The translations under genes and the position numbers were made by a program. From Daphnia pulex (taxonomy: Eukaryota; Arthropoda; Branchiopoda; Diplostraca; Daphniidae), in NCBI RefSeq assembly GCF_021134715.1, contig NC_060026.1, forward strand, positions 12,019,001-12,083,000: a stretch of DNA of 64,000 nucleotides, in the 5' to 3' direction. Below the pieces are notes generated by a model, which was given only the letters and a program-made list of their open reading frames with translations, did no database searches and was not told the DNA's origin. Shown one piece after another: positions 20,467-63,429 of the stretch (position 1 is its first letter; every line of letters begins with the position of its first letter).

Positions 20467-22615
20467 ATGGCGTACAATGTAGCCACGTTGGACGAGCTCA
20501 TCGCCGAGTTACACAAAGCGTTCGAAAGTGACTCGGTGGACGTGGATCACGTCACGCAGCTCATGCAATCCTACAAGAGCAATCCGGCTGATTGGGGGAA
20601 ATTCGCTAAATTCGATCGCTACCGGTAAATATCCAGCAATTTAATATATTTTTTTTATTTTGTCAAAATGATTGAATCAACAAAAATGGTCCCATCTCAA
20701 TTTCCTACGCTCCCAATTCAATTTTCTGTTGAAAAACAAGTTATAAAAACAAATGTCTGCTGCGTCAGCTTTAATATATAGTCCCCCAATTTCTCAGAAC
20801 TAGAAATTTCACTCATTAACAAGTTCTGTCCCATCGCTGACCTTTAAAGAAAAAACCCACATATGTTTTTGCCAAAACTTTCTCTATCCTCCCCACATTC
20901 TTTTGGCATCTTTTTCTTTTTTATCACATTGACCCGAGCAGCCGAGCTTTTATTCTTATATTTTACCAGCCTCCCCACGATAAAAACATATATTTTTGGG
21001 TTTCGTAGCTGTGTCTGAACTACTACACTTGGTGTGTAGTAGTTTTGAACCAAAATCTTTTATCAACCCCACACCCACACCGGGACGTGTGTGTCCGATA
21101 ATGTGCCAACCGCATTAGTATGGCAGTGCCAGACCTTTTTTGATTTTTAAAAGGTTTTGTGGTTTTTATCATTTTTTTATTTCAAGGTTCTAGAAGATTT
21201 CGCACCTGATGTTGTTGTTGTTGTTGCATTGTTCAAATGTGAACTTTATCGATAAGTTGTACTCTACCCACTTGTTTGTTTACCGTCTTAGTGTAAATTG
21301 TATGTTGAACTGCGCAATCAAAAAAAGTTCTGGAACTATACGTCACATGTGGACGGAACCGGTTCGAGCCGAAGTTGTGACACATTAGCCCGCGTAGCCT
21401 GTCAACAACTGATACGAATATGCTAATTAATAACATTAAAATTTATTTTTATTTTGCAGATACACTCGAAATTTAGTGGACGAAGGTAACGGCAAATTCA
21501 ATTTGATGCTGCTCTGCTGGGGTGAGGGTCACAGTTCGGCCGTTCACGATCACGCCGACGCTCATTGCTTCATGAAAATGCTGGACGGCACGCTCAAAGA
21601 AGTCCGCTTCGCCTGGCCGTCTGATGGCAACAACAGCAGCCCAGCAACAACCGAAAGCGGTGCCGGAGACGCCCAAGAACTCCAAACCACCGGTTCCACG
21701 CTGCTGGAAGTGAACGGCGTCTGCTACATTAATGGTAAAAAAACATTTATAATCCCGCTTCCAACATTTCGTTGAAGGTTGAAGGCCTTTTTACCTTTCA
21801 AATAGAGAATGTATCGAAACTTTTGTAGATTTAATCTTCCAATCTAAATCTCGACCGTGTCGACATTTTTATGAAATAACAACCGAAACTTTTGGTTGTT
21901 TGTCGTCTCTCCAGGGCAGGGTTATCTGTTTGTCGGTCACGTTAATATTTGTATGATTTTAGAGAGACACTTTCTTATCTCGATTTTGTTCGCCCATAAC
22001 ATGCTAAGTAGTCAAGAGCGTGTGGGGTGATCGGAAGATGTTACGGGGGGGCCATTCAAGGCTCCCGTCTTGTTGCTATGGGTGACGTCAACGCGTGAAT
22101 CCATGGCCAGCGGCGAATAATATGGAAACAAATAAGGAAAAGAAAAATAGTACGTACGATAACGACACGATAAAAACTAGCTTTATTTGCATTATGGCGG
22201 ACGACGAGGGGAAGTAAATGTTTAGACTGAAAAGTGACGACTCAACATGTTATTGAGCGAATGCGCGTCTCACGTTGCCCGATTTCTCTCATTTCGTTTA
22301 GATTCGCTCGGATTGCATCGAGTGGAGAACCCGAGTCACGTGGACCGCTCCGTGTCGCTGCACCTGTACAGCCCGCCTTTCGACACCTGTCACATGTTCG
22401 ACCAGCGGACGGGCAAAAAGACGGCGGCCAAAGTCACGTTCTGGAGCAAATTCGGCGAGCGCGTTCCATCGGTAAAATTTCGAAAAAAAATTAATAAATT
22501 ATAATCAATTTTTGTTTTTAATTTGATTAAATTTTCTTAGACGGTGGTTCCTCATTCGTGCTCGATTCCGAAGGTGACCGAAGGATCTTCCGCCACGGCG
22601 GCAACCACCAATTGA
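20467..22615 (+). CDS. CDO1: Cysteine dioxygenase, copy 1
   Basis: A cytosolic non-heme iron cupin enzyme that oxidises cysteine to cysteine sulfinate, the first step to taurine and sulfate. Exons 20467-20624, 21460-21734, 22302-22471 and 22541-22615 give 225 residues (human about 200). Active-site residues are all present: Fe ligands His82 and His84 in [10 protein letters not shown], His150 in [10 protein letters not shown]; Cys89, which forms the thioether crosslink with Tyr167; the Ser163-His165-Tyr167 triad in [13 protein letters not shown]; and substrate-binding Arg56 in [15 protein letters not shown] 10-20 residue insert rich in Asn, Ser and Thr follows FAWPSDG. The C-terminal 25 residues are encoded by a small last exon and are not conserved. 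Introns 1 and 2 are long for this window (835 and 567 bp). The gene is the left member of a tandem pair. Confidence 0.96.
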
Positions 22616-24988: not shown

Positions 24989-26511
24989 ATGGCTGGCAAC
25001 ACGTTGAACGAGCTCAAAGCAAATTTACACGAAGCGTTCCAGAGCGACCCGGTGGACATGGATCACGTCAAGGATCTCATGGAACGCTACAGTAGCAATC
25101 CGGCTGATTGGGGGCAATTCGCTATATTTGATAGCACCCAGTAAATATTAAATTTTTTTTTCAATCAAGAAACAAAAATACTCTTTTTTCAATTTCTTAT
25201 TTGCTCAAAATTGATTTTGTGTGAGAAAACAAAAGTTTAGAAGACCTATAGAAGACTTATAGGGCTACCCAATTTTTCGTAAAGCTTTGGGGAATTTTTC
25301 ATTAAAACATTTTTTAATGGAATTATGGAGGGAAAACTTAAACTGTCCCAAAAGCCACACCTTTTCCGACTTGTGTGTAACTTTGAAGTTTGAATTTTGA
25401 ACCAAATGTTTCACCACAACCCCGCCCACACCAGGACTTGGTAAATAAACCGCATCAGCACGACGGCGATATACAAAGTTGAGAATATTTCTAGTTTAAT
25501 CGTTACTATATTTTTGAAAAAAGATTGTGCATCTGAAGTAATTTTTTTAAACGTGAACTTGGTGTGTAATATAGACGGAACCGGTTCGAGCCAAATTTGC
25601 GACACGTCAGCAACTGACTCAAATATCGAGTGTTATCACAAAATTGTTAATTAACGTTTTGATTTGTTCAAGTTACACCCGAATTTTGGTGGACGAAGGT
25701 AATGGCAAATTCAATGTGATACTCCTCTGCTGGGGACCGGGTCAAGGTTCGCCCATTCACGATCACGCCGACGCTCATTGCTTCATGAAAATGCTGGATG
25801 GCGAGCTGAAAGAAGTCCGCTTCGACTGGCCCTCCGGTAGCAACGCACAAGAATTGCACGAAACGAGTTCTACGGTGCTGAAAGTGAATGAAGTTAGCTA
25901 CATTAATGGTAAGAAGCTTATATTTTTCAGAATATGGTAATAGTATTCAGAATATACGGTACGATTCAAAGCTCCCGCCATTGTTGCTATGAGTGACGTC
26001 AACGCGTGAATTTATAGCCAGCGGCGCAAATATTAAAAAAAAAGGAGAACACTATAAGTGCACGATAAAGGCAAGATAAGAACTAGCTTTGTTTGAAACT
26101 TCGAATGTTTAGGTTGAAATGTAACACCGGATGACTTTACTTTAACACAATGTTACTATAAGAAGGAATTTCATTTTCACGACACTCAATGGCTCTTTTT
26201 TATTCCGTTCAGATTCAATCGGATTGCATCAAGTGGGAAATACAAGTGACAAAGGGGCAGTTTCGTTGCACTTGTACAGCCCACCTTACAGCAAATGTCA
26301 CACGTTCAAGCCTCAGACGGGCGAAAAGTCTGAGGCCAACATTACGTTCTGGAGCAAGGTTGGCGAGCGCGTCGTTCCACCAGTAAAATTTTTAAAAATA
26401 ATTGATCAATTCGAAAAATTAGTGAATTCAATGAAAATATTGATTTCTCAGACGACGACTCATCAATCGTGTTGGAGCCCGGCGGCGACCAACTGCGACG
26501 GCTGCAAATAG
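24989..26511 (+). CDS. Cysteine dioxygenase, copy 2 (tandem paralogue)
   Basis: Exons 24989-25140, 25673-25908, 26213-26382 and 26452-26511 give 205 residues with the same intron positions and phases as copy 1. The iron ligands (His80 and His82 in [10 protein letters not shown]; His135 in DSIGLHQVGN), Cys87, Arg54 ([14 protein letters not shown]) and the Ser147-His149-Tyr151 triad ([13 protein letters not shown]) are intact, so it should be catalytically competent. It differs from copy 1 by a shorter insert after FDWPSG, Gln and Gly replacing Arg and Glu after the third iron ligand, and an unrelated Cys-rich tail ending NCDGCK. Introns are shorter than in copy 1. The divergence is clearly more than allelic, so the duplication is not recent, and both frames have been kept open. 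Confidence 0.95.
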
Positions 26512-48404: not shown

Positions 48405-49600
48405 AAGCGGTGTTTCACAGTTCCTATGATAAAAAGAACTGAACGAGATGTAGGGAAAACGGAATCTGTATTTAGACGTTACCATCGGCCATAGTAGAGC
48501 ACAAGAGACTGATTGACAAAGGGGGCTTAAGGGCCGAATTAGATTCTGTAAGGGGATAGGAGCTGTGATGCCAGATGGCATCATTACAGTTCCTGGAAGA
48601 TATTCTCGGGGAGTTTCTATGAGCCATTTTTTTCTAAAACTATTCCTTCATGATTTGTATTATGAATTCATTGATTCAATGAACTTGAAATGGTGTATTG
48701 TACAGTACCCTACAAAACAATCCAACAGAGATTTTTTTTCAAAGAGCCCCCTATGTAGACTGCGGGGAACTGTGTTTGTATTTAAGCCTAATATATGAAT
48801 TCATAATAAAAATGAAGAAGGAATTGTTTTGGAAAAAAGGGTTCATGTGAAATATTCCAGGAACTGTGAAACACCACGTCAATCAGTTCGAAAATTGATT
48901 GTTTCTCGAATACAAAAACTTTCTTTCTCACAGGATATGTAAATCGATGTCTAATACACCATTTCTAGTCAATTGAATCAATGAATTCATAATACAAATG
49001 ATGAAGGAATAGTTTTAGAAAAAACGGTTCATGGAAACTCTTTCAGGAACTGTGAAACACTACTTCAATGAGTTTCAAATTGCTATATTGATTGTTTTAC
49101 GAATAAAAAACATTTCTTTATTACAGGATGTTTTTATTATAGATGTCTAATGCACCATTTGCAGTACATTTAATCAATGAACTCATAATACAAATCATGA
49201 AGGAATAGTTTAAGCAAAATAAAAGGCGGGGTTCATAGAATCTCTTTCAGGAACTGTGAAACACTACTTCAATGAGTTTGAAGTTGCTATTATATTGATT
49301 GTTTCACGAATACAAAACATTTCTTTCTTACAGGACATGTTAATCGATGTCTAATACACCATTTCTAGTCCATTGAATCAATAAATTCATAATACAAATG
49401 ATGAAGGAATAGTTTTAGACAAAACGGTTCATGGAGACTCTTTCAGGAACTGCGAAACACTACTTCAATGAGTTTCAAATTGCTATATTGATTGTTTCAC
49501 GAATAAAAAAACATTTCTTAATTACAGGATATGTTAATCGATGTCTAATACACCAGTAAAAGTCCTTTGAATCAATTAATCCCTGAGGTATATTTATATA
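48405..49600. repeat. Tandem ~190-200 bp repeat array with an inverted copy at its left end
   Basis: Direct units begin with GTTCATG(G)A...TTTCAGGAACTGTGAAACAC at about 48841, 49028, 49230 and 49428, a period of about 187-202 bp, and each also holds TCTAATACACCATTT and TCAATGAATTCATAATACAAA. An inverted copy lies at about 48585-48710 (TTTGTATTATGAATTCATTGA reads as the reverse complement), and GTGTTTCACAGTTCCT at 48411 is the reverse complement of the unit start. A further direct fragment is at about 50712-50762. The layout suggests a mobile element or satellite derived from one. Confidence 0.75.
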
Positions 49601-51674: not shown

Positions 51675-51935
51675 AGTACGATTCGGCCAGAAAATATTTG
51701 GCCGAATGCAACAAAAATTATTTGTATGATTCGGCCGCTGTCCGAATGTTACAGAAAAATTTGTATGTTTCGGCCAGTGGCCGAATTACACATAAAAATT
51801 TATATGATTCGGCCATCCTTTTTCTTCGGCCAGCACAAGTTTTTCGGCCAAAAAAATAATTTTCGGGGACGTTGAAAAAATGTAACTGGCCGAATCGTAT
51901 ATTAAAATTTTTATGATTCGGCCGGATTCGGCTTG
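51675..51935. repeat. CGGCC-containing tandem/inverted repeat
   Basis: Variants of ATGATTCGGCC and GGCCGAAT recur roughly every 40-50 bp, in both orientations, separated by A/T-rich AAAAATTT spacers. The 112-codon antisense frame 51718-52056 is a translation of this repeat. Confidence 0.7.
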
Positions 51936-52840
51936 TGGCTGGGATCCACGCCACTCGCGGATGGTGTTGGAACCATAGGTATATGGGAGGTATTAGAGGC
52001 CAGGATAAGGGCAAATAACAGGGAACGAATAAGTTGAAAGTGAAAAAGTTAGCCATTAAGTGATTACAGTCTTACACTTATCGCTATATTTGTAAGTGGA
52101 AAATACAATGAGTATTACATTTCATTCATGGCCAACTTTATTTAATTAAAATTTATTTCGGCTGTACATATTTCGGCTCAATTGTTTGTAGGGTGGATAG
52201 TCCAAAACATGGACAAACAGTGTATAATCTACATCCAAATGTGGCCAGGGTAAAATTTCAAACGCGTCCACATCTTGTCCATTTGGATATCCTATAAAAG
52301 TAAAAAGTTTACGTAGAATGATGTGACATTAGGATAGACATTCAACGTACCATGGATGACCCAAATGTATATCCAATCGTCCAATATGGATAGAAGGGTA
52401 CGTTGTTGAGATGTAAGCGTGCTAGCAGGGATGCCTCAAAAGGTTGGAGGCATACACACAGCCGTAGCCGTATAGCCAGCGTCAAGCTCAAGAAAGACAC
52501 AAATACGACAAGTTAAAAAACGGGGAACGAGCAGGCCAGTAGCAGGTCGAATAAACGGCCTGACACTTGACTCGCCAAAGGGTGTCAATCAACACTAGAC
52601 TGGGTGAACAGCCTAGCATTGACTAAAGAAGAACTGCAATTGATGGGGTTTTATACGACAAACAAAGCCAACGCGATCACCAACGCAGGGTGAGCGTAAT
52701 GAAAGGATGGAAAGGAAATGACTTGTTTCCAGAAAAGAGGGGGAGGATATTTTTTCAAGAAAGAAGTAAGGAAGAAAGAAAAAAAGACGAAAATATTCCG
52801 TAATTTTGCCCCATATAAGGCTTTATGAAAGAAAAATCAC
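51936..52840. other. Non-coding DNA between the CGGCC repeat and the toxin-like gene
   Basis: Contains repeat-family sequences rich in short inverted ATCCAAATGG-type motifs, ending in GCGTGCTAGCAGGGATG at about 52417-52433. The stretch 52440-52740 is more GC-balanced and unlike its surroundings; I could not identify it. No frame that could be an immunity partner for the toxin-like gene is seen here. Confidence 0.45.
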
Positions 52841-55800
52841 TCACTGATCCATACCCTTTAAAATTATTGTGAGAGGGGCATTTTTCCCATGAACACCTCC
52901 CTGGTGTTCTGGTTGCCATACAGGATGCCCATTCCACCATTCATGTGGGCCACCAACTTTCTGTGGTATGATATGGTGAAATTGATGGTGCATCGGTTCC
53001 CCTGTCTTGGGGTTCGGTGTCGTCGGCCAAGGGCGATCATAATGCTCTGACCATTCTTTTTTGAGCCTTTCTTTTACAGCCGGTGTGTAGCCATCCTTAT
53101 GCAGTTGTTTTGCCTCCCCTTCCAATTTTCTGTACTTATTTTGTTGCAGGTTTTGTTTCAAAAGTCGGCTGTGCTCGGGTCTCATCGATATCCCAGAACG
53201 TGCCTCTACATCCCTCATGCAAGCCCTGGCATCTCTCGAAAAGGCCGTCGTCAGCAACCCGGAAGAATTTACCACCGTGGTCTCCACATTTCTACCTCCT
53301 TTTTGGAGGTGCCCGTTTTTTTCATAGGCAGCAGTTAGTTGGTTGACGCTGACGCTGGAAGTTAAGCTCGTACTTGCTCCTGGTTTTGGGGGGACAAAAG
53401 GGGGCGTTTGTTTTAGTTTCAACGGAGGCAATGATGGAGGCGTGCGTTTTGGAATTACCCCGGAACTGGGCTCTGCGGATTTCGCTTTTCTTTTTGGAAG
53501 GGGCGGAGGCGCTTGTTTAGGTTCGGCGATTTTTTTAAGAGCGGGGGTCGTTGCGCTTCTTATTTGTCTGGTGAGGAGCTTGCGGCCACCTCGAACCATG
53601 AGAACACCCGCCGTAAGCTCCAAAAATTCTCCGATTGTGGGGCTCAACGCGTAAGCCTTGTTGAGAACAGCTTCTGTCGCTGCACCAGCGGTTTGATCCA
53701 GCGCGTTCGCCCCGATTATGCCCAAAACCCCGCCCGCAATAGCCCCAGGAGGACCACCAAGGATTCCCCCCACAGCCACACCCGTAGCCGTTGCTTCCGC
53801 ATATCCCCAGAGACAAAGGCCTGTGCCCACAATCCACAAAATCTCGTTTTTAGCCCGAGAGACAAAAGACGCCGTGTCGGGATATTCACGCGCAAACCGC
53901 CCGTAAGCCCGGCCCAACATCCCTTGTGCCACCACCACGTCTTCATACGCCGCTTGCACTTTCATCTCAGTCGTCACCCTGGATACACCGGAAACTGTCA
54001 CTTCAGGCGTTCTTGAGGAATCTGTATTGGGGACAGAGATGGTTTGTGCTGGAGAAGGTCTTGGGTGAAGAGTGCCAGCTGAGGGGCTTCCCTGAGACGC
54101 TTTAACAACACGGGTTGGCTTTGAAGGAGCTGGAGACCTCTCTTGAAAGTGGCGCGCCTCTGCTTCCACCCGTGCTTCAATCAGCAGGCGTTTGGCCCGA
54201 ACCACAGTATGAAGCGCTTCTTTCACCTCTGCATCAGCCATAAACATCTTCACGGATGCTTCTGCTTGCGCTTTCTCCTGAACACTCAAAGGTTCTCTCT
54301 GTGGTTCATTGAGGGTTTCTGAGATGATTTTCTTGCTCGTCTCTTCCGCCTCAGCACGTACAATGCGTTCTTGAATTGAACTCAGTTTCTCCCGAATCCA
54401 CATTCCATCCGAAACCATCCCTCCAATCGTACTCAGGGGAATCGAAAAAGCGGTGTGGTCCTCTCTGTCAAATTCCTCGAGTTTTTCGTGGGTTTCTTGC
54501 GTGACGGTCAGATGCGTGCTTGCCTGGGTTGTGGCATCAGATGTGAGGCTTGTCTGCGCTGTTTCAGCGTCCAGCGTTCCAATCCCTGTCTCCTGGCCAA
54601 TCGTGCGGAGCTTCTGGATTCGCCCTGTCAGTGGATGAACACTGAAGATCCCTGCACCAAGTGTTTGAATGCGCCGGCAATGGCTCTTCTTCTCTTGTTG
54701 AGCCGAAAGGGCTGTCGCAGCTGTAAAAGCGGCTTGGGAACCAACGTAGGAGACGGGATTAAGCGAGAGATTCACAGAGAATCCCGAGCTTTCTCTCTCT
54801 TCATGGTGCTCCCCACACACGCCTTGAAAGACCATCTCCCCAATTTCTGCACGTCCTCTGTGCGTTTGAATCTCAAAGCCTACGAGGTCCATCTGAGGCG
54901 CTGCTAAATCCAGCTTCTCGAGCCTGAGCGTGCTCAAGCTGGGGAATTTCTGCGACCTGGAGCCCTGACCCTGATTGCGTCCAATGCCTACGCCTCCAAA
55001 GGGGTTGATACTCATTGTCCGGGAAGAGCTGGTCTGGACGTGCTGCCCCTCATCCAGACTGAAGGTGCCTTGAAACTGCTTTGTCCGCAAATACCAATTG
55101 TGCCCCGTAATGTGACCCTGCAATTTTACAAACGTGTTGTTGGTGATGCGGGCATTCTTGATCTCTAATTGCGAGGGAATAGAAGATTGTTGATTAAAAC
55201 TGTTGCTTGATTTCTGCTTCCCAAAGGTGGTCGTTCCGTAACGTTGAAGAAAAATCTGAGAGATTGAAAGTGCGGGAGAGAGAATTCCCTTACTTCCTGC
55301 TTTCAAAACGTCAAGAATCTGACTCGCTGCTTGCACAACGCCAAAAGCAGCGTGGAGAATTTCGGCGCTTGCAACCGCTTGAAGGAACGGATGTGCGTCG
55401 CTGTTTCTATTTTGAAGCGCACTCGCCAACGGTTCTGCTTGAAAAGGACCACCCACCAGACCGGACGTTGTGGCCATCTCGTTGCCCCAAGCTCCTTGCG
55501 TCGCGTCGCGAACCGTCAGTGCCGCATCTTTGAGGTCAAGGCGTTCGATTTTTCCACATACCCCTTCTAAAACAAGGACCCCGGTCGTATTTCTGGGTAC
55601 GTCTCGGACCCAGTTTCCTATCTGAGGCCTCGGTTGTAAAAGCGTGTCAATGCCCCCCTCCTGGATCACCTCACGGTCTTGCAGCAATTTGGAAGACTCA
55701 TAATGCCGTTCGATTGTATTTTTAGTTTTTGCCGTCAGAATCTGCGTACCGTCACGCGTCGTATCCTGAACAGTTCCGGGAATCTGGATAACAGAGCCCG

Positions 55801-58800
55801 AGAAAATGGCACCTTGTCCTTTGAGATTCAAGTCGTTGGTCTCAAGAATCGCTGGAACGAGGCGATGCTCAACCTTCCGCTCGCTCCCTGAACTATTGGA
55901 GAAGGTGCCACTCTTGTCCCAGGAATCAACAGACGACTGCACGTTGATCGCATGCAGCAGGTGAACAGGCCCTTCTCCTCCATCCAACGTGAGGAAAGAC
56001 GTCTTGATCTGTGGGGCCACCAGCGTAGACCCTTTCGCTCCTGCAACATAAACGGCCGTCTCATTTGCGAGCTGACAGGGCATCTCCAAGGTCGTCTCCA
56101 TCACGTTGGTTTCTGTTATCCATCCTCCGCCCACTCCTCCACGTTTGTGACTTTTCACTGTGGCGATTTTGTCGTGAAGTGTCTGTGTCTCAACGCGCAT
56201 TTCCCCTTCTGTGCTCCGGAGAAAAATGTGTTTTTTTGTAGCAAAAAGCGTCGCTGCCTGGGTGTGAAGCCTCTGGGTCTCCACAATCGCTCCCCCATAA
56301 GGCGCCAAGAAACCACTAGGTTGATCCAGAATTTCCGAGATGCGCACACCATTCGAGAGTGCGTGCGTTTCACTGTGCGTTGCCGCACGGACGTTGGCTG
56401 TTCCACTCTGTACTCTAATGGCGTCTTCTGCTTCCCCTTCTGTTGCGACCACGACACCCTCAAAATCAGTGTGTTCTTGAACAGTGATGTGCGCATGCTC
56501 TTTGCCGTACAGAACTGTCGTTGCGGAAGATTTTCCTGCCTGTATCAGATTTTGTTGATGAGGAGAAGGCTGAAGCCACACATCACGTCCCTGCGTAAAC
56601 AGGAAACTGCCAAAATTTGCGGCCACGCGTTGCAAATCGACGCAAGACGGAAGTGCGAGAGAGGTTTCCTCGCCAACAGTTTTTTCAGCAGCTGTTGACC
56701 CTGGAGGCAGCGCTTCGAGACCTTCGCGTGCAGCTTGCTGTCCGTTGTTCGCCAACTGGTCTAAATTTTCTGGCATGAGCGCATCGAGCCCCAGATAACC
56801 GACCAGATGCGGCATGAGGAATCGCATCAAAGAGGGTGCAAGACTGATGGACGTCTCAGAATGTCCGAGCCACGCCAAAGTTGGGAGTTTCGTTTCGTCA
56901 CCCCAGGGAATCGTCAAACGCACTGTGTCTGTATCGTCAATGGTTACAAAACCAGGAAATTTCTTACATGCAAAATCGTTTAAGTTAAGGGCTTGGGTTT
57001 CGACGTTCTCTCGACGTCCCGAACGTCCAATTAAATTGCGCACATTGATGTCTAGGAGGACTCCGCCCACAAGGGCACCATCTACCCGAAAATCGTCAAT
57101 ATTAAAAGAGACGTTCTGACCTCCTGTAATCTGAGAGACTTCAGCGCTTTGAGCACCACTGGTCCCGTACACAAGAATTGTTGAGCCTTTTCCATGATGC
57201 TCGACACCGTTAACGTTGAGATTGCATCCTGCTAGAATTTTTGAGCTTTCGACGCAGCCGTTTATGAGTCCCACAACCTTGCAGTTTCCTCTGATCTGCA
57301 GTGTGCTTGCTTCTGACCGGTCATGGGGTGAGGAGCCGCTTACAAATGTCCGGTGCCATTTCCATCTCCCTCCACAGAACGCCTCCACATAGCCGCGGTA
57401 AGGACTCCAGTAGAGCTGATCACGAACAATCCGCAGTACTGGCGTCTCAATCAGGGCTTCTTGAGCCATTACGTTTGTGGCGATACACTGAAATTCCTGG
57501 GCTTGCAGCGATAAAAGAGCCTCACTCGCCAAAGTTCCGTAATTGGCCCGCACAGCTCCTGCGGGTGTACGCAACGTCAATGGCCCCTGGCTCGAAAATC
57601 CCCCTCCATTGCTTTGGCCACCTTGATACGTAATCGGGAAGCACAAGAGTATGCCATCTAAATTCGTTCCTGTTCTGGTGCGGTTGCTCGTTGAATGTGC
57701 GCTTCTTAGAGGGCCAGGCATATAATCTCCGACAAGAATATCCCCTTGTTCAACAACCACCTCCAAGCTTCCCTGCACCGTAATCTTTCCCCAGCGGCTA
57801 TTGACAAGCTCCCGGACGCAAAAAAGCATTCCTCCTTCACTTTGAACCGTTGTTTTTAAGGAAACAGGTGACCGTATAGGTAAGGAAGTCGGAGGATAGA
57901 CAGGCTGAGCACACAGTTTCGTTCTCTCAACGCCAAAAACGGGTTCGGCGGCCCTTTCAGTGCGCTCTCTGTAAGGCGCATTTGACGGCACAAGACCATT
58001 GATGAAACGCAGACCGTTGAAGGTGAAGACGCTGTCGGATCCAACACCTTGCATAGCTCCACAATGGGTGAATGCTTCAGCTTTGAGCTGATGGGTACCA
58101 TAGGTTGTAAACAAAGCGTTGTTTAGGAAATGGTCTGTGATCCTCCACTCTCCTGACCCAAACAAATCCCTGTCGTTTTGAAGACGCTGACATTTCAATT
58201 TTTTACTGCAGGTGAAACTGCCTGTGTTGAGAACCGTGCGCCCCGAACCCTTCAAAGTCTCCACTTGTAAAACCCCGATGTTCTCGAGATGAGCCTCCAA
58301 GGTAAGTTTCCCAATCGATAAATCAAACGCCCCAACTCGAACAGGTTTGAATTCTCCAGGCGTTTCTTGAAGCGTCATGTGCTCCACATACCAGCGGCCT
58401 GTCTTCAAGAATTCTGGGAGGTGTGGCGAACTAAAAGGAGGGAAATGGAAGGTTCCACCACCTGTGCACCTCAGAAAAGAGACAGGAGAGCAGCTCAAAA
58501 AGACCTCTCCACTGTTTTCGATCTCATTGGCCTCCACCCGGGATAGATGTGCCTTTCCAAGGTTCAGAAGTCTTTTAACACGCAAATTTTCTACAAACAG
58601 GGCACCGTCGTTGCAGATTTCTTTCCCGGGACTCGCAAGAATTTCGGCCCGCAATTCCCCGGTGTTTTCGACCCCATGATCACGAAGGGTGAGAGTTTTT
58701 GCTTCGAGAGTCCCGGAATTCTGAAGAAGGATTTTCTCGGCACTAACATCTTCCAGAACCGCCCGTCCCGCATTTGTGAAAGCTTCAGAGCCATAAAGGC

Positions 58801-59911
58801 ATGTAACGCAGAGCGTCTCAAAATTAATGAAAGAACCACCCAGTTTCAGAAAAAACTCTGGAGCTTCTTTCCAAGGTGCGATACTTCCACGGTTGATGGA
58901 GACTCCTTCCAAAACAATTTTACCCGATCCCATCCAGTTGCCCGTGTTCTCAAAGTTTTGAATCACCAACCGATCAAGTTTTTGGGCTCTGATCTCTCCC
59001 GCGTTCTGACAGGTAGAAAGTGTTCCGCCCCAGCCTTCAAGCACTATTTTCCCGCGGTTGAGAAGCCTGAGTTCATCCACCTTCCAAAGGGCTTGCCCTT
59101 CAAAAACCCCTGTTTCTTCCTGGCTGAAAACTCCTGGGCCGGTCCATGTTTGAGGTCCCAGAAGACCCCAAACACCCACGTTTGTTATCTGCGCCTTACC
59201 TAAGCGCACAAATCCATTCTCGAGGCCACGCACGGTTCCGTGATTTTCTAGCGAGACTTCCTTTGCGAACGCCAGGTTTCGGTAAATAAGAACAGCGCCC
59301 GGAGCAACGCTCACTTTGGAAGCAGTCTGGGTACCTTCTAAAAAGGAGATGGTTTCAAATTGGGCGTCTTCCACCAACGTCTGCCCCAGAAAAGTGGTTT
59401 CGGAAACAGTCGTGGACAATCTGGCCAGATTCAGACCCACTAAACTCAGCAGCAAGGCTCCCTCCACCACCAGATGATGGGGCTCTTTGAGCTTTCCTTC
59501 GAGATGAAGCCGGAAAAATTCCCCTTCTTGAGTCCAGAGAGCGCTCAAGCCTTGGGTTTTATCTGCTCCGTGAAGGAGAATTTTTTTACCTATGGCGAGA
59601 TACTGCCGCGTCGTCCCTTGCAGAGGGCTCCGGAGGGGACTTTGTGTTGAACCGTCCGTGTCAGAGGCGAGGTCGTCTCCAAAGGAACTCTTCGAAGAGC
59701 CGCTGGCAGAGAGTTTTCGGGAGGAAAAAGGGGAATTTGAGAGGGAGCCATCACCAGAATCCTCTGATAAATATATAAAATATTTATGGTAAGGTCTTCT
59801 ATTTAAGTCGTCATCGACTTTTTGAATCGGGTAGAATGTGGTGGCGGGAATGAGGACGCAAATCAACTGCTGTTGCGGCCTGGGATGGGCTGGCTCGACC
59901 CCGCCCGCCAT
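52841..59911 (-). CDS. Giant intronless hemagglutinin-like protein with C-terminal HNH-type nuclease domain (bacterial polymorphic-toxin style)
   Basis: One open frame of 2,356 codons without introns, unlike every neighbour. After about 60 residues of no clear origin and a Ser-rich stretch, residues about 100-1800 show irregular beta-helix repeats of the filamentous hemagglutinin kind (recurring NxG turns such as LENHGTVRG, FENTGNW, LLNLGKAHL). A charged coiled region follows, then a Gly/Ala-rich hydrophobic segment at about 2023-2129, a Pro-rich linker at about 2130-2178, and a final about 110 residues with a His/Trp nuclease signature: HHxxxHH at 2308-2313, WW 2325-2326, His2329, His2336 and His2341. 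This order is that of bacterial contact-dependent or type V secreted toxins. No signal peptide or TPS secretion domain is seen at the start, and no immunity gene lies beside it. The DNA is visibly richer in GC than its flanks. Horizontal transfer is the best explanation; misassembly of symbiont DNA cannot be excluded. Confidence 0.8.
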   Translation of the reverse strand: MAGGVEPAHPRPQQQLICVLIPATTFYPIQKVDDDLNRRPYHKYFIYLSEDSGDGSLSNSPFSSRKLSASGSSKSSFGDDLASDTDGSTQSPLRSPLQGTTRQYLAIGKKILLHGADKTQGLSALWTQEGEFFRLHLEGKLKEPHHLVVEGALLLSLVGLNLARLSTTVSETTFLGQTLVEDAQFETISFLEGTQTASKVSVAPGAVLIYRNLAFAKEVSLENHGTVRGLENGFVRLGKAQITNVGVWGLLGPQTWTGPGVFSQEETGVFEGQALWKVDELRLLNRGKIVLEGWGGTLSTCQNAGEIRAQKLDRLVIQNFENTGNWMGSGKIVLEGVSINRGSIAPWKEAPEFFLKLGGSFINFETLCVTCLYGSEAFTNAGRAVLEDVSAEKILLQNSGTLEAKTLTLRDHGVENTGELRAEILASPGKEICNDGALFVENLRVKRLLNLGKAHLSRVEANEIENSGEVFLSCSPVSFLRCTGGGTFHFPPFSSPHLPEFLKTGRWYVEHMTLQETPGEFKPVRVGAFDLSIGKLTLEAHLENIGVLQVETLKGSGRTVLNTGSFTCSKKLKCQRLQNDRDLFGSGEWRITDHFLNNALFTTYGTHQLKAEAFTHCGAMQGVGSDSVFTFNGLRFINGLVPSNAPYRERTERAAEPVFGVERTKLCAQPVYPPTSLPIRSPVSLKTTVQSEGGMLFCVRELVNSRWGKITVQGSLEVVVEQGDILVGDYMPGPLRSAHSTSNRTRTGTNLDGILLCFPITYQGGQSNGGGFSSQGPLTLRTPAGAVRANYGTLASEALLSLQAQEFQCIATNVMAQEALIETPVLRIVRDQLYWSPYRGYVEAFCGGRWKWHRTFVSGSSPHDRSEASTLQIRGNCKVVGLINGCVESSKILAGCNLNVNGVEHHGKGSTILVYGTSGAQSAEVSQITGGQNVSFNIDDFRVDGALVGGVLLDINVRNLIGRSGRRENVETQALNLNDFACKKFPGFVTIDDTDTVRLTIPWGDETKLPTLAWLGHSETSISLAPSLMRFLMPHLVGYLGLDALMPENLDQLANNGQQAAREGLEALPPGSTAAEKTVGEETSLALPSCVDLQRVAANFGSFLFTQGRDVWLQPSPHQQNLIQAGKSSATTVLYGKEHAHITVQEHTDFEGVVVATEGEAEDAIRVQSGTANVRAATHSETHALSNGVRISEILDQPSGFLAPYGGAIVETQRLHTQAATLFATKKHIFLRSTEGEMRVETQTLHDKIATVKSHKRGGVGGGWITETNVMETTLEMPCQLANETAVYVAGAKGSTLVAPQIKTSFLTLDGGEGPVHLLHAINVQSSVDSWDKSGTFSNSSGSERKVEHRLVPAILETNDLNLKGQGAIFSGSVIQIPGTVQDTTRDGTQILTAKTKNTIERHYESSKLLQDREVIQEGGIDTLLQPRPQIGNWVRDVPRNTTGVLVLEGVCGKIERLDLKDAALTVRDATQGAWGNEMATTSGLVGGPFQAEPLASALQNRNSDAHPFLQAVASAEILHAAFGVVQAASQILDVLKAGSKGILSPALSISQIFLQRYGTTTFGKQKSSNSFNQQSSIPSQLEIKNARITNNTFVKLQGHITGHNWYLRTKQFQGTFSLDEGQHVQTSSSRTMSINPFGGVGIGRNQGQGSRSQKFPSLSTLRLEKLDLAAPQMDLVGFEIQTHRGRAEIGEMVFQGVCGEHHEERESSGFSVNLSLNPVSYVGSQAAFTAATALSAQQEKKSHCRRIQTLGAGIFSVHPLTGRIQKLRTIGQETGIGTLDAETAQTSLTSDATTQASTHLTVTQETHEKLEEFDREDHTAFSIPLSTIGGMVSDGMWIREKLSSIQERIVRAEAEETSKKIISETLNEPQREPLSVQEKAQAEASVKMFMADAEVKEALHTVVRAKRLLIEARVEAEARHFQERSPAPSKPTRVVKASQGSPSAGTLHPRPSPAQTISVPNTDSSRTPEVTVSGVSRVTTEMKVQAAYEDVVVAQGMLGRAYGRFAREYPDTASFVSRAKNEILWIVGTGLCLWGYAEATATGVAVGGILGGPPGAIAGGVLGIIGANALDQTAGAATEAVLNKAYALSPTIGEFLELTAGVLMVRGGRKLLTRQIRSATTPALKKIAEPKQAPPPLPKRKAKSAEPSSGVIPKRTPPSLPPLKLKQTPPFVPPKPGASTSLTSSVSVNQLTAAYEKNGHLQKGGRNVETTVVNSSGLLTTAFSRDARACMRDVEARSGISMRPEHSRLLKQNLQQNKYRKLEGEAKQLHKDGYTPAVKERLKKEWSEHYDRPWPTTPNPKTGEPMHHQFHHIIPQKVGGPHEWWNGHPVWQPEHQGGVHGKNAPLTIILKGMDQ

Positions 59912-59969
59912 ATTTGCGCTCCAGCAGCTCGATCTGCTTGTCCAGCAGGTTCTGCGACTTCTCGTACAT
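59871..59969 (-). pseudogene. IQSEC (Arf-GEF, Schizo-like) exon fragment
   Basis: The minus strand reads MYEKSQNLLDKQIELLERKY, then GGRGRASPSQAAT, which resembles the segment just before the IQ motif in IQSEC/Schizo Arf-GEF proteins. The similarity stops there: the next residues are not an IQ helix, no proper acceptor precedes it and no good donor follows. The start codon of the giant frame lies inside this fragment but in another reading frame. It is probably a copied or captured piece of the host gene. Confidence 0.45.
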
Positions 59970-60448
59970 GCGTAATAATAAAAACAAATACAAATATTTC
60001 AATCTCATTTTCAATTTCAAATTAATTATATTAAATGAAACTCAAAAAATTTGAAAATGACAAATGTCATAGAGCTAACAAAGCTCTTTATTTTGCATTT
60101 GTTGGCGTCTTTATAGGGTTATTTTTTTTCTATTTAGAGAGCGGCAAAGTAGCCACTTTTTAATACGCTTCTACAGCGTGTTTCCAAACTTTTACATCCA
60201 TTTGTAGATGCCCCCCTAAATATAAAAATCTGAAAAAAATTCAAGAAGTAGCCAACTATTATGGCTACTTCCAAAAAAAATTTCAATACTCTCCGTGAAA
60301 AACCTGATTTTTGGGAACGCGGCGAAAATCGGCTTTTTACATAAGCTTCTCTCTAGCGTTTCCAAACTTCTGGTAGGTACTGTATATACAGTTTTTTTTT
60401 CTTGTGAGCATTGTTTTTATCATAAAAAATTTAACAATATAGTTATGA
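59970..60448. other. AT-rich non-coding DNA
   Basis: Nothing gene-like. AGTAGCCA(C/A)T and GCGTTTCCAAAC blocks occur twice each, suggesting a degenerate repeat. Confidence 0.4.
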
Positions 60449-61440
60449 TTTAACAAGCAATCCACCACTCAACCGCACCAAATCCATGGACCCCACTTTT
60501 TTTCCCATTCCGCTATGGGACCAAGAAATCTGAAATAATTCAGGCATATTCAGTTTTTTACTCCGGATTCACCTGTGTTTGCAGAATTTAAATATTCCCT
60601 GCCGTTCGGGAGATATTTAATGTTAAAGTTTTAGTTTATTCAAATTTTAACAATTTTAGGGGGTCTTTGGCATCGCTTTTTGGGTAAATCCTAACCTTTA
60701 AAAAAAAACTAATTGAACCAAAAGTTTGCTCGACCATCCCTTAATACCAATCCAAAAGGAATTTACATTCCGAATTAGATTGGCCGAGTTATTTCTAATC
60801 TACTAAAGTGTAATTTTGACCAGTTTCCCACCCAGCCTAGTCGCCATTTTTTATGACTCTCCCTCGCGTTCCTAGCGGATGACAGACGAAGCTACGCTTT
60901 CCTGGCCTTCACTTTAGACCGGGGGACGTACTGTAGGCCTTTTCATATAGTCTAGTGGCCGGCAATATGAAGCCCGAGGTGTAGAGAACTCGTATGCTTC
61001 GTCTGTCATCCGCTAGGAACGCGAGGGAGAGTCATAAATAATGGCGACTAGGCTGGGTGGGAAACTGGTCAAAATTACACTTTACTAGATTGGAAATAAC
61101 TCGGCCAATCTAATTCGGAATGTAAATTCCTTTTGGATTGGTATTAAAGGATGGCCGAGCAAACTTTTGGTTGAATTTGTTTTTTTTTAAAGGTTAGGAT
61201 TTACCCAAAAAGCGATGCCAAAGACCCCCTAAAATTGTTAAAATTTGAAAAAACTCAAACTTTACCATTAAATATCTCCCGAACAGCAGGGAATATTTAA
61301 ATTCTGCAAACACAGGTGAATCCGGAGTAAAAAACTGGATATGCCTGAATTATTTCAGATTTTTTGGTCCCATAGCGGAATGGGAAAAAAAAGTGGGGTC
61401 CATGGATTTGGTGCGGTTGAGTGGTGGATTGCTTGTTAAA
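60449..61440. repeat. ~1 kb near-perfect palindrome (foldback element)
   Basis: Left arm about 60449-60892 and right arm about 60996-61440 are reverse complements over roughly 440 bp (for example TTTAACAAGCAATCCACCAC at 60449 against GTGGTGGATTGCTTGTTAAA at the right end), separated by a spacer of about 100 bp. A few substitutions and small indels distinguish the arms. No coding frame is present, so it is a non-autonomous foldback or MITE-like element. Confidence 0.9.
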
Positions 61441-63105: not shown

Positions 63106-63429
63106 AGACGGGACGGGACGGGACGGGACGGGACGGGACGGGACGGGACGGGACGGGACGGGACGGGACGGGACGGGACGGGACGGGACGGGACGGGACG
63201 GGACGGGACGGGACGGGACGGGACGGGACGGGACGGGACGGGACGGGACGGGACGGGACGGGACGGGACGGGACGGGACGGGACGGGACGGGACGGGACG
63301 GGACGGGACGGGACGGGACGGGACGGGACGGGACGGGACGGGACGGGACGGGACGGGACGGGACGGGACGGGACGGGACGGGACGGGACGGGACGGGACG
63401 GGACGGGACGGGACGGGACGGGACGGGAC
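63106..63429. repeat. (GGGAC)n pentanucleotide microsatellite, about 65 copies
   Basis: About 324 bp of uninterrupted GACGG/GGGAC units with no visible variant unit. It creates an artificial minus-strand Pro-Ser-Arg-Pro-Val frame that is not a gene. Confidence 0.97.

Follow-up and report, generated by a model that had tools for sequence, protein, structure and literature searches.

An apparently bacterial toxin gene with an HNH nuclease tip, nearest to Holosporales, joined to host DNA in a Daphnia pulex chromosome

Introduction

The closest described systems are the SUKH-paired HNH polymorphic toxins of bacteria (PMC3482391), here represented by loci of Caedimonas (L032), a Holosporaceae MAG (L033) and Ca. 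Bealeia (L001). They resemble the gene presented here in tip sequence and motif. Their immunity gene begins at the toxin stop, as in Daphnia, and L033 also has a similar pre-toxin region. Unlike these bacterial toxins, the Daphnia copy lies in an animal chromosome, has probably lost its 5' end and is followed by an immunity gene that is cut after about 18 codons. For Rhs2-CT of Serratia marcescens (PDB 8cm0, 9t38) DNase activity has been reported (PMC4524185). Rhs2-CT shares 22% identity with the Daphnia tip and is borne on an Rhs protein sent by the type VI system.

Arthropod genomes are known to contain toxin domains from bacteria, and the described cases from Daphnia and insects that are considered here carry introns. 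The transfer of Tox-SHH and Tox-REase-8 to Daphnia was reported in 2012 by Zhang et al. (PMC3482391). These are likewise nuclease domains of polymorphic toxins; the Tox-SHH gene has 11 introns, whereas the reading frame here is uninterrupted. A search of the whole genome with PF15652 (Tox-SHH) gave nothing at E<=0.1, and intron splitting may hide that gene. Among the arthropod HGT-chimeras of Kapoor et al. (2026), two clusters are described as occurring in D. pulex and D. pulicaria only (PMC13389597). In these chimeras foreign and host-derived sequences share one frame, as here; unlike their host domain, the host part here consists of about 41 codons of repair patch. In the titles, abstracts and passages searched we found no description of this gene, nor of a near-whole giant toxin, a kinship with Holosporales, a cut antidote or a datable scar for it.

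An uninterrupted frame in host surroundings

We analysed a window of 64,000 nucleotides (C10:12019001-12083000), which is the whole stretch of DNA presented here; the whole-genome searches covered 133,188,837 bases in 13 contigs. The window contains one very long open reading frame (ORF).

52841..59911, minus strand: long ORF of 2,356 codons plus stop, ATG start, 0 internal stops; about 41 host-derived codons at the 5' end, followed by about 2,315 bacterial codons

The long unbroken frame noted in the first-pass annotation was borne out. From stop to stop it spans 59998 to 52844 (2,385 codons), and among the frames of at least 75 codons the longest one elsewhere in the window (outside 52.7-60.0 kb) has 265 codons. 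The GC content is 0.49-0.53 within the ORF (about 0.51), and the adjoining windows on either side have 0.33-0.36 (about 0.35). When the whole genome was searched with the encoded protein, the ORF itself and one match of 26 residues were obtained, the latter corresponding to a host-derived patch (3 of 3 candidates scored). A second significant match to the toxin was not found in the 133 Mb genome.

In the neighbourhood, 7 of the 8 open pieces scanned exceeded the family cut-offs (WD40 twice, mitochondrial carrier, cysteine dioxygenase twice, galactosyltransferase and collagen), and the eighth matched a TPR family below the cut-off. The CDO_I (cysteine dioxygenase) coding pieces at 21440-21772 and 25575-25937 lie on the same strand and are apparently tandem duplicates. 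The window also holds a 204-bp unit repeated four times in tandem at 48795-49580 (82% matches) and a GACGG pentanucleotide array of 64.6 copies at 63107-63429 (100% matches).

The nuclease tip and the remnant of its antidote

52841..53254, minus strand: HNH nuclease tip, residues about 2220-2356, stop TGA at 52843-52841

52791..52844, minus strand: remnant of a SUKH-type immunity gene, about 18 codons, GTG start overlapping the toxin stop

The proposed HNH-type C-terminus of the protein proved to be real. Pfam PF01844 matched the tip with E=0.0014 and 19.2 bits, below the cut-off of 21.4, and relatives of the tip were found at 75 bacterial loci. The conserved His/Asn residues are present at 2312, 2313, 2327, 2336 and 2341; the tip retains 21 of the 24 well-conserved columns (at least 85% conserved) and departs at 3. 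Its predicted fold matches Rhs2-CT over most of the domain. In the tree, the Daphnia tip was nested among bacterial sequences beside Holosporales, with Caedimonas (L032) as the nearest known tip. Its branch was three times as long as that of its sister (0.83 vs 0.27), and this long branch together with the 3 changed columns is compatible with either relaxed or altered constraint. Since a Campylobacterota sequence (L041) is also among the near neighbours and the Bealeia branch is long, a Holosporales donor is indicated mainly by the Caedimonas pairing and by L033. The two orders that gave the best matches had 2 matching genomes among 10 and 14 among 49, with every match confined to the tip region. 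Sequences related to Holosporaceae have been reported among the microbiota of Daphnia cf. pulex (PMC11909080). The tip family also occurs in 4 contigs of a viral collection (L110-L113).

Directly behind the ORF, the GTG at 52844 opens the peptide MSDFSFIKPYMGQNYGIF (GTG read as M), which is followed by a short pyrimidine-rich run and then by host repeat. In the bacterial toxin loci, an ORF with 100 codons or more begins between -30 and +22 bases from the toxin stop in 48 of the 49 checked (75 in all). When neighbours were scanned with Pfam, 5 of 6 exceeded a SUKH family cut-off (L033, L032, L001, L027 and L028); the L026 neighbour, taken as a stop-to-stop frame, showed no SUKH match over the cut-off. 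Several of the bacterial immunity-neighbour N-termini read like MADFSFLKKY. When compared with 28 of the 51 N-termini, the remnant peptide ranked above each of 5,000 shuffled versions and above every one of the insert's 452 other start peptides. An intact immunity gene is absent directly downstream of the toxin, and a whole-genome search for the SMI1/KNR4 domain gave no match at E<=0.1. The insert appears to carry most of the toxin gene, yet just the beginning of its antidote. Behind the Caedimonas toxin and its SUKH gene, a partly Gly-rich, hydrophobic frame of 550 codons (L032 2003-3652) resembles, by eye, part of another toxin module.

The N-terminal body

54302..59779, minus strand: large N-terminal body, residues about 45-1870, relatives and families not found

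53582..53839, minus strand: Gly-rich, weakly hydrophobic pre-toxin stretch, residues about 2025-2110

53381..53524, minus strand: Pro-rich linker, residues about 2130-2177, by reading

The first-pass annotation had proposed an adhesin with beta-helix repeats, a hydrophobic segment, a Pro-rich linker and a nuclease end. In this architecture the linker and the HNH-like C-terminus stood, and the gene is most likely incomplete, its 5' start being probably lost. Residues 147-165 form the sole segment with a Kyte-Doolittle mean above 1.6; the Gly-rich stretch remains below 1.6. The adhesin repeats were neither supported nor excluded by the Pfam, NCBIfam, PADLOC, PHROGs, repeat and structure analyses. 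Pieces of the body gave no Pfam match at E<=0.1, the whole ORF no match in the NCBIfam and PADLOC scans, and four ORF pieces no match in PHROGs. Self-BLAST of the ORF detected no internal repeat, and three segments showed no significant periodicity. An AlphaFold model of residues 150-700 from one sequence contained strands, with a pLDDT of 31 that makes it unusable, and the haemagglutinin matches obtained by tblastn were insignificant (E 6-9). In Pfam and NCBIfam, neither a TPS domain or haemagglutinin repeats (CdiA-type) nor an N-terminal secretion or trafficking domain was matched, the 5' end of the gene being probably missing.

The Holosporaceae MAG protein L033 can be aligned to residues 1874-2356 (27%, E 2e-27), mainly owing to the tip. 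With the tip removed, the pre-tip region reached a best local score of 35.4 bits against L033; this tops the shuffle maximum of 30.4 (n=200), so the similarity is modest and likely real. For the about 1,800 residues upstream of 1874 no relative was found. Residues 44-2137 had no match in viral contigs or phage records; among the 385 genomes in the class to which the Holosporaceae hit belongs, a single one matched them, weakly (E 3.9e-4). For the whole ORF against genome contigs, 0 of 16 pattern matches were confirmed. Among about 5.8 billion proteins, 0 of 7,988 scored candidates matched residues 40-2356 at E<=0.001, and 0 of 80 and 0 of 4 candidates matched residues 2190-2356 and the last 152 residues, respectively; these negatives are weak because the same searches missed tip relatives that tblastn detected. 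A bacterial origin of the body is indicated by its continuity with the tip, by its GC content and, from residue 1874 on, by the similarity to L033.

Joints, host patches and the start codon

52431..52774, minus strand: MITE-like host repeat, 84-95% like 10 near-full copies

59789..59858, minus strand: SH3-domain gene patch, 70 bp, 65/70 identical to C2:2571543-2571612

59867..59889, minus strand: 23-bp patch, 21/23 identical, E=4e-4 within a 10-kb locus

59891..59988, minus strand: IQSEC-like gene patch, 98 bp, 88/98 identical to C1:8020599-8020696

59909..59911, minus strand: ATG opening the ORF, inside the IQSEC-like patch (AATATGG, A at -3, G at +4)

59991..60300, minus strand: transposon-like repeat of the host, interrupted at the joint

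The joints between host and bacterial DNA lie at about 52.78 and 59.79 kb. In the assembly, host DNA is continuous with the foreign gene at both sides. The host flanks and the Holosporales as nearest tip relatives found support the earlier proposal that an animal has horizontally acquired a bacterial toxin gene. At the downstream joint, the MITE-like repeat lacks roughly its first 17 bp, and its other side also departs from the copies L017 and L019. About 0.6 kb past this broken repeat, a 39-bp unit occurs three times in tandem (51699-51815, 79% matches).

At the upstream joint, the order outward from the toxin is the SH3 patch (from C2), the 23-bp patch (C1), the 98-bp patch (C1) and the repeat. 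All three patches are oriented as their source genes read. The SH3 patch is a piece of a coding exon and is read here in the frame of its source gene. The 98-bp patch comes from a C1 gene that we take to be IQSEC-like from its protein sequence, and the source of the 23-bp patch lies about 0.9 kb further along the same gene in the same orientation. The 98-bp patch comprises an intron end and an exon start, with the splice acceptor AG reading AT, and was therefore copied from genomic DNA and not from cDNA. Error-prone end repair leaves short templated fillers of this kind. The same combination of patches was not found elsewhere in the genome among 40 scored of 52 candidates. The element at 59991..60300 has at least about 41 other genomic places among the matches listed, and in 5 loci aligned (7 copies) it extends past the break point. 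Next to the insert, at 60449-61440, lies a near-perfect inverted repeat with 396-nt arms (97%), a 103-nt spacer and outer arms of 58 nt (98%), which is a palindromic transposon-like element.

The ATG of the ORF is out of frame relative to the IQSEC-like source gene, and a protein started at 59911 would begin with about 41 patch-encoded residues. Between the end of the patch (codon 41) and codon 121 there is no in-frame ATG, GTG or TTG; the next in-frame starts are TTG at codon 122, GTG at codon 148 and ATG at codon 327. Codons 42-121 are open and GC-rich, and the simplest view is that they are coding; the bacterial gene would then most likely be truncated at the 5' end, with loss of its native start. 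Alternatively, the native start may lie further in, at codon 122 or beyond.

Age of the scar and intactness of the frame

The patches differ from their sources at 10/98, 2/23 and 5/70 positions, in total 17/191 or 8.9% (95% interval 5.3-13.9%), a divergence clock based on 191 bp. The differences include amino-acid changes and the lost splice site, which are most simply assigned to the copy. The silent divergence between D. pulex and D. obtusa is given as 0.134 (PMC12926508). If rates are alike, the duplication is thus somewhat younger than this split. For the about 2,315 bacterial codons, a neutral model built on the mutation spectrum and indel ratio published for D. obtusa predicted 13.7-27.4 stops and 43-85 indels for half to all of 9%, and 6.1 stops with a P(no stop) of 0.0023 at 2% divergence. 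A simpler simulation yielded 10.9-20.8 stops for half to all of 9% and 5.2 at 2%. Against these expectations, none was seen. Judged by the apparent age of the scar, the frame would hardly have stayed open by chance; we infer that it was kept by selection, and the scar divergence favours this reading.

An intact frame would also be explained if the bacterial DNA had arrived later among older patches, as a recent unused passenger that joined an existing host patchwork and is open for lack of time. This is the main rival reading; we do not regard it as probable, and it has a real chance of being right. The cut in the immunity gene and the probable one in the toxin gene resemble those of a random chunk, and the HGT-chimeras confined to D. 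pulex and D. pulicaria are reported with dates as recent as 82,000 years ago (PMC13389597). Error-prone synthesis of the patches would, moreover, inflate the clock. However, the patches lie end to end at the bacterial joint in a combination that did not recur among the candidates scored, and even at just 1% neutral divergence P(no stop) would be 0.048, with about 9.5 indels expected. That the patches abut the joint favours a single event, without proof.

A fusion of symbiont DNA to a host contig during library preparation or assembly would account for the bacterial GC content and the absence of introns. The patches argue against such a chimera because their pieces differ from the sources by 7-10%: a multi-part patched joint of this kind is not expected from the tube or the assembler, and the toxin has no further significant match in the genome. 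We therefore consider an artefact quite improbable. A native Daphnia gene that holds an HNH domain by chance, for which the chromosomal location speaks and nothing beyond, is hardly credible, as the tip is nested in bacterial sequences beside Holosporales and the remnant of a bacterial operon partner lies directly behind the ORF.

Discussion

On balance, and with modest confidence, we think that a toxin fragment of a Holosporales bacterium was end-joined into the Daphnia chromosome, received its ATG from a patch and has been maintained as a frame by selection. The fragment of about 7.0 kb would have entered through illegitimate end-joining, with the upstream joint patched by short copies of two unlinked host genes. 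It most likely begins within the very large toxin gene and ends early in the SUKH immunity gene. The in-frame ATG supplied by the patch would then allow a protein of 2,356 amino acids to be made.

By analogy to the described polymorphic toxins, the giant protein would have delivered a DNase into a rival cell of the donor, whose overlapping immunity gene would protect the producer (PMC3482391). In Daphnia, the protein would lack a bacterial secretion signal and, if translated, remain inside the cell because the export signal is probably gone. The HNH tip would be predicted to cut DNA as Rhs2-CT does, and an active DNase would be costly. Changes at conserved columns, a long branch and the loss of the antidote together suggest that the tip has been tuned down or redirected.

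More tentatively, and as something possible rather than probable, a symbiont DNase toxin without antidote may have become a working animal gene, with a start codon from a repair patch and about 2,315 codons under selection since roughly the time when D. pulex and D. obtusa separated, or a little after it. It might serve, for example, as a weapon or signal directed at bacteria inside the cell, its tip being altered at conserved positions so that the host tolerates it.

At this locus the entry event is still legible in the source operon, the cut points and the patches used, and the patches give a date that is independent of the toxin gene itself. If the frame is selected, Daphnia would be an animal that retains a bacterial DNase toxin of very large size but not the antidote to it.
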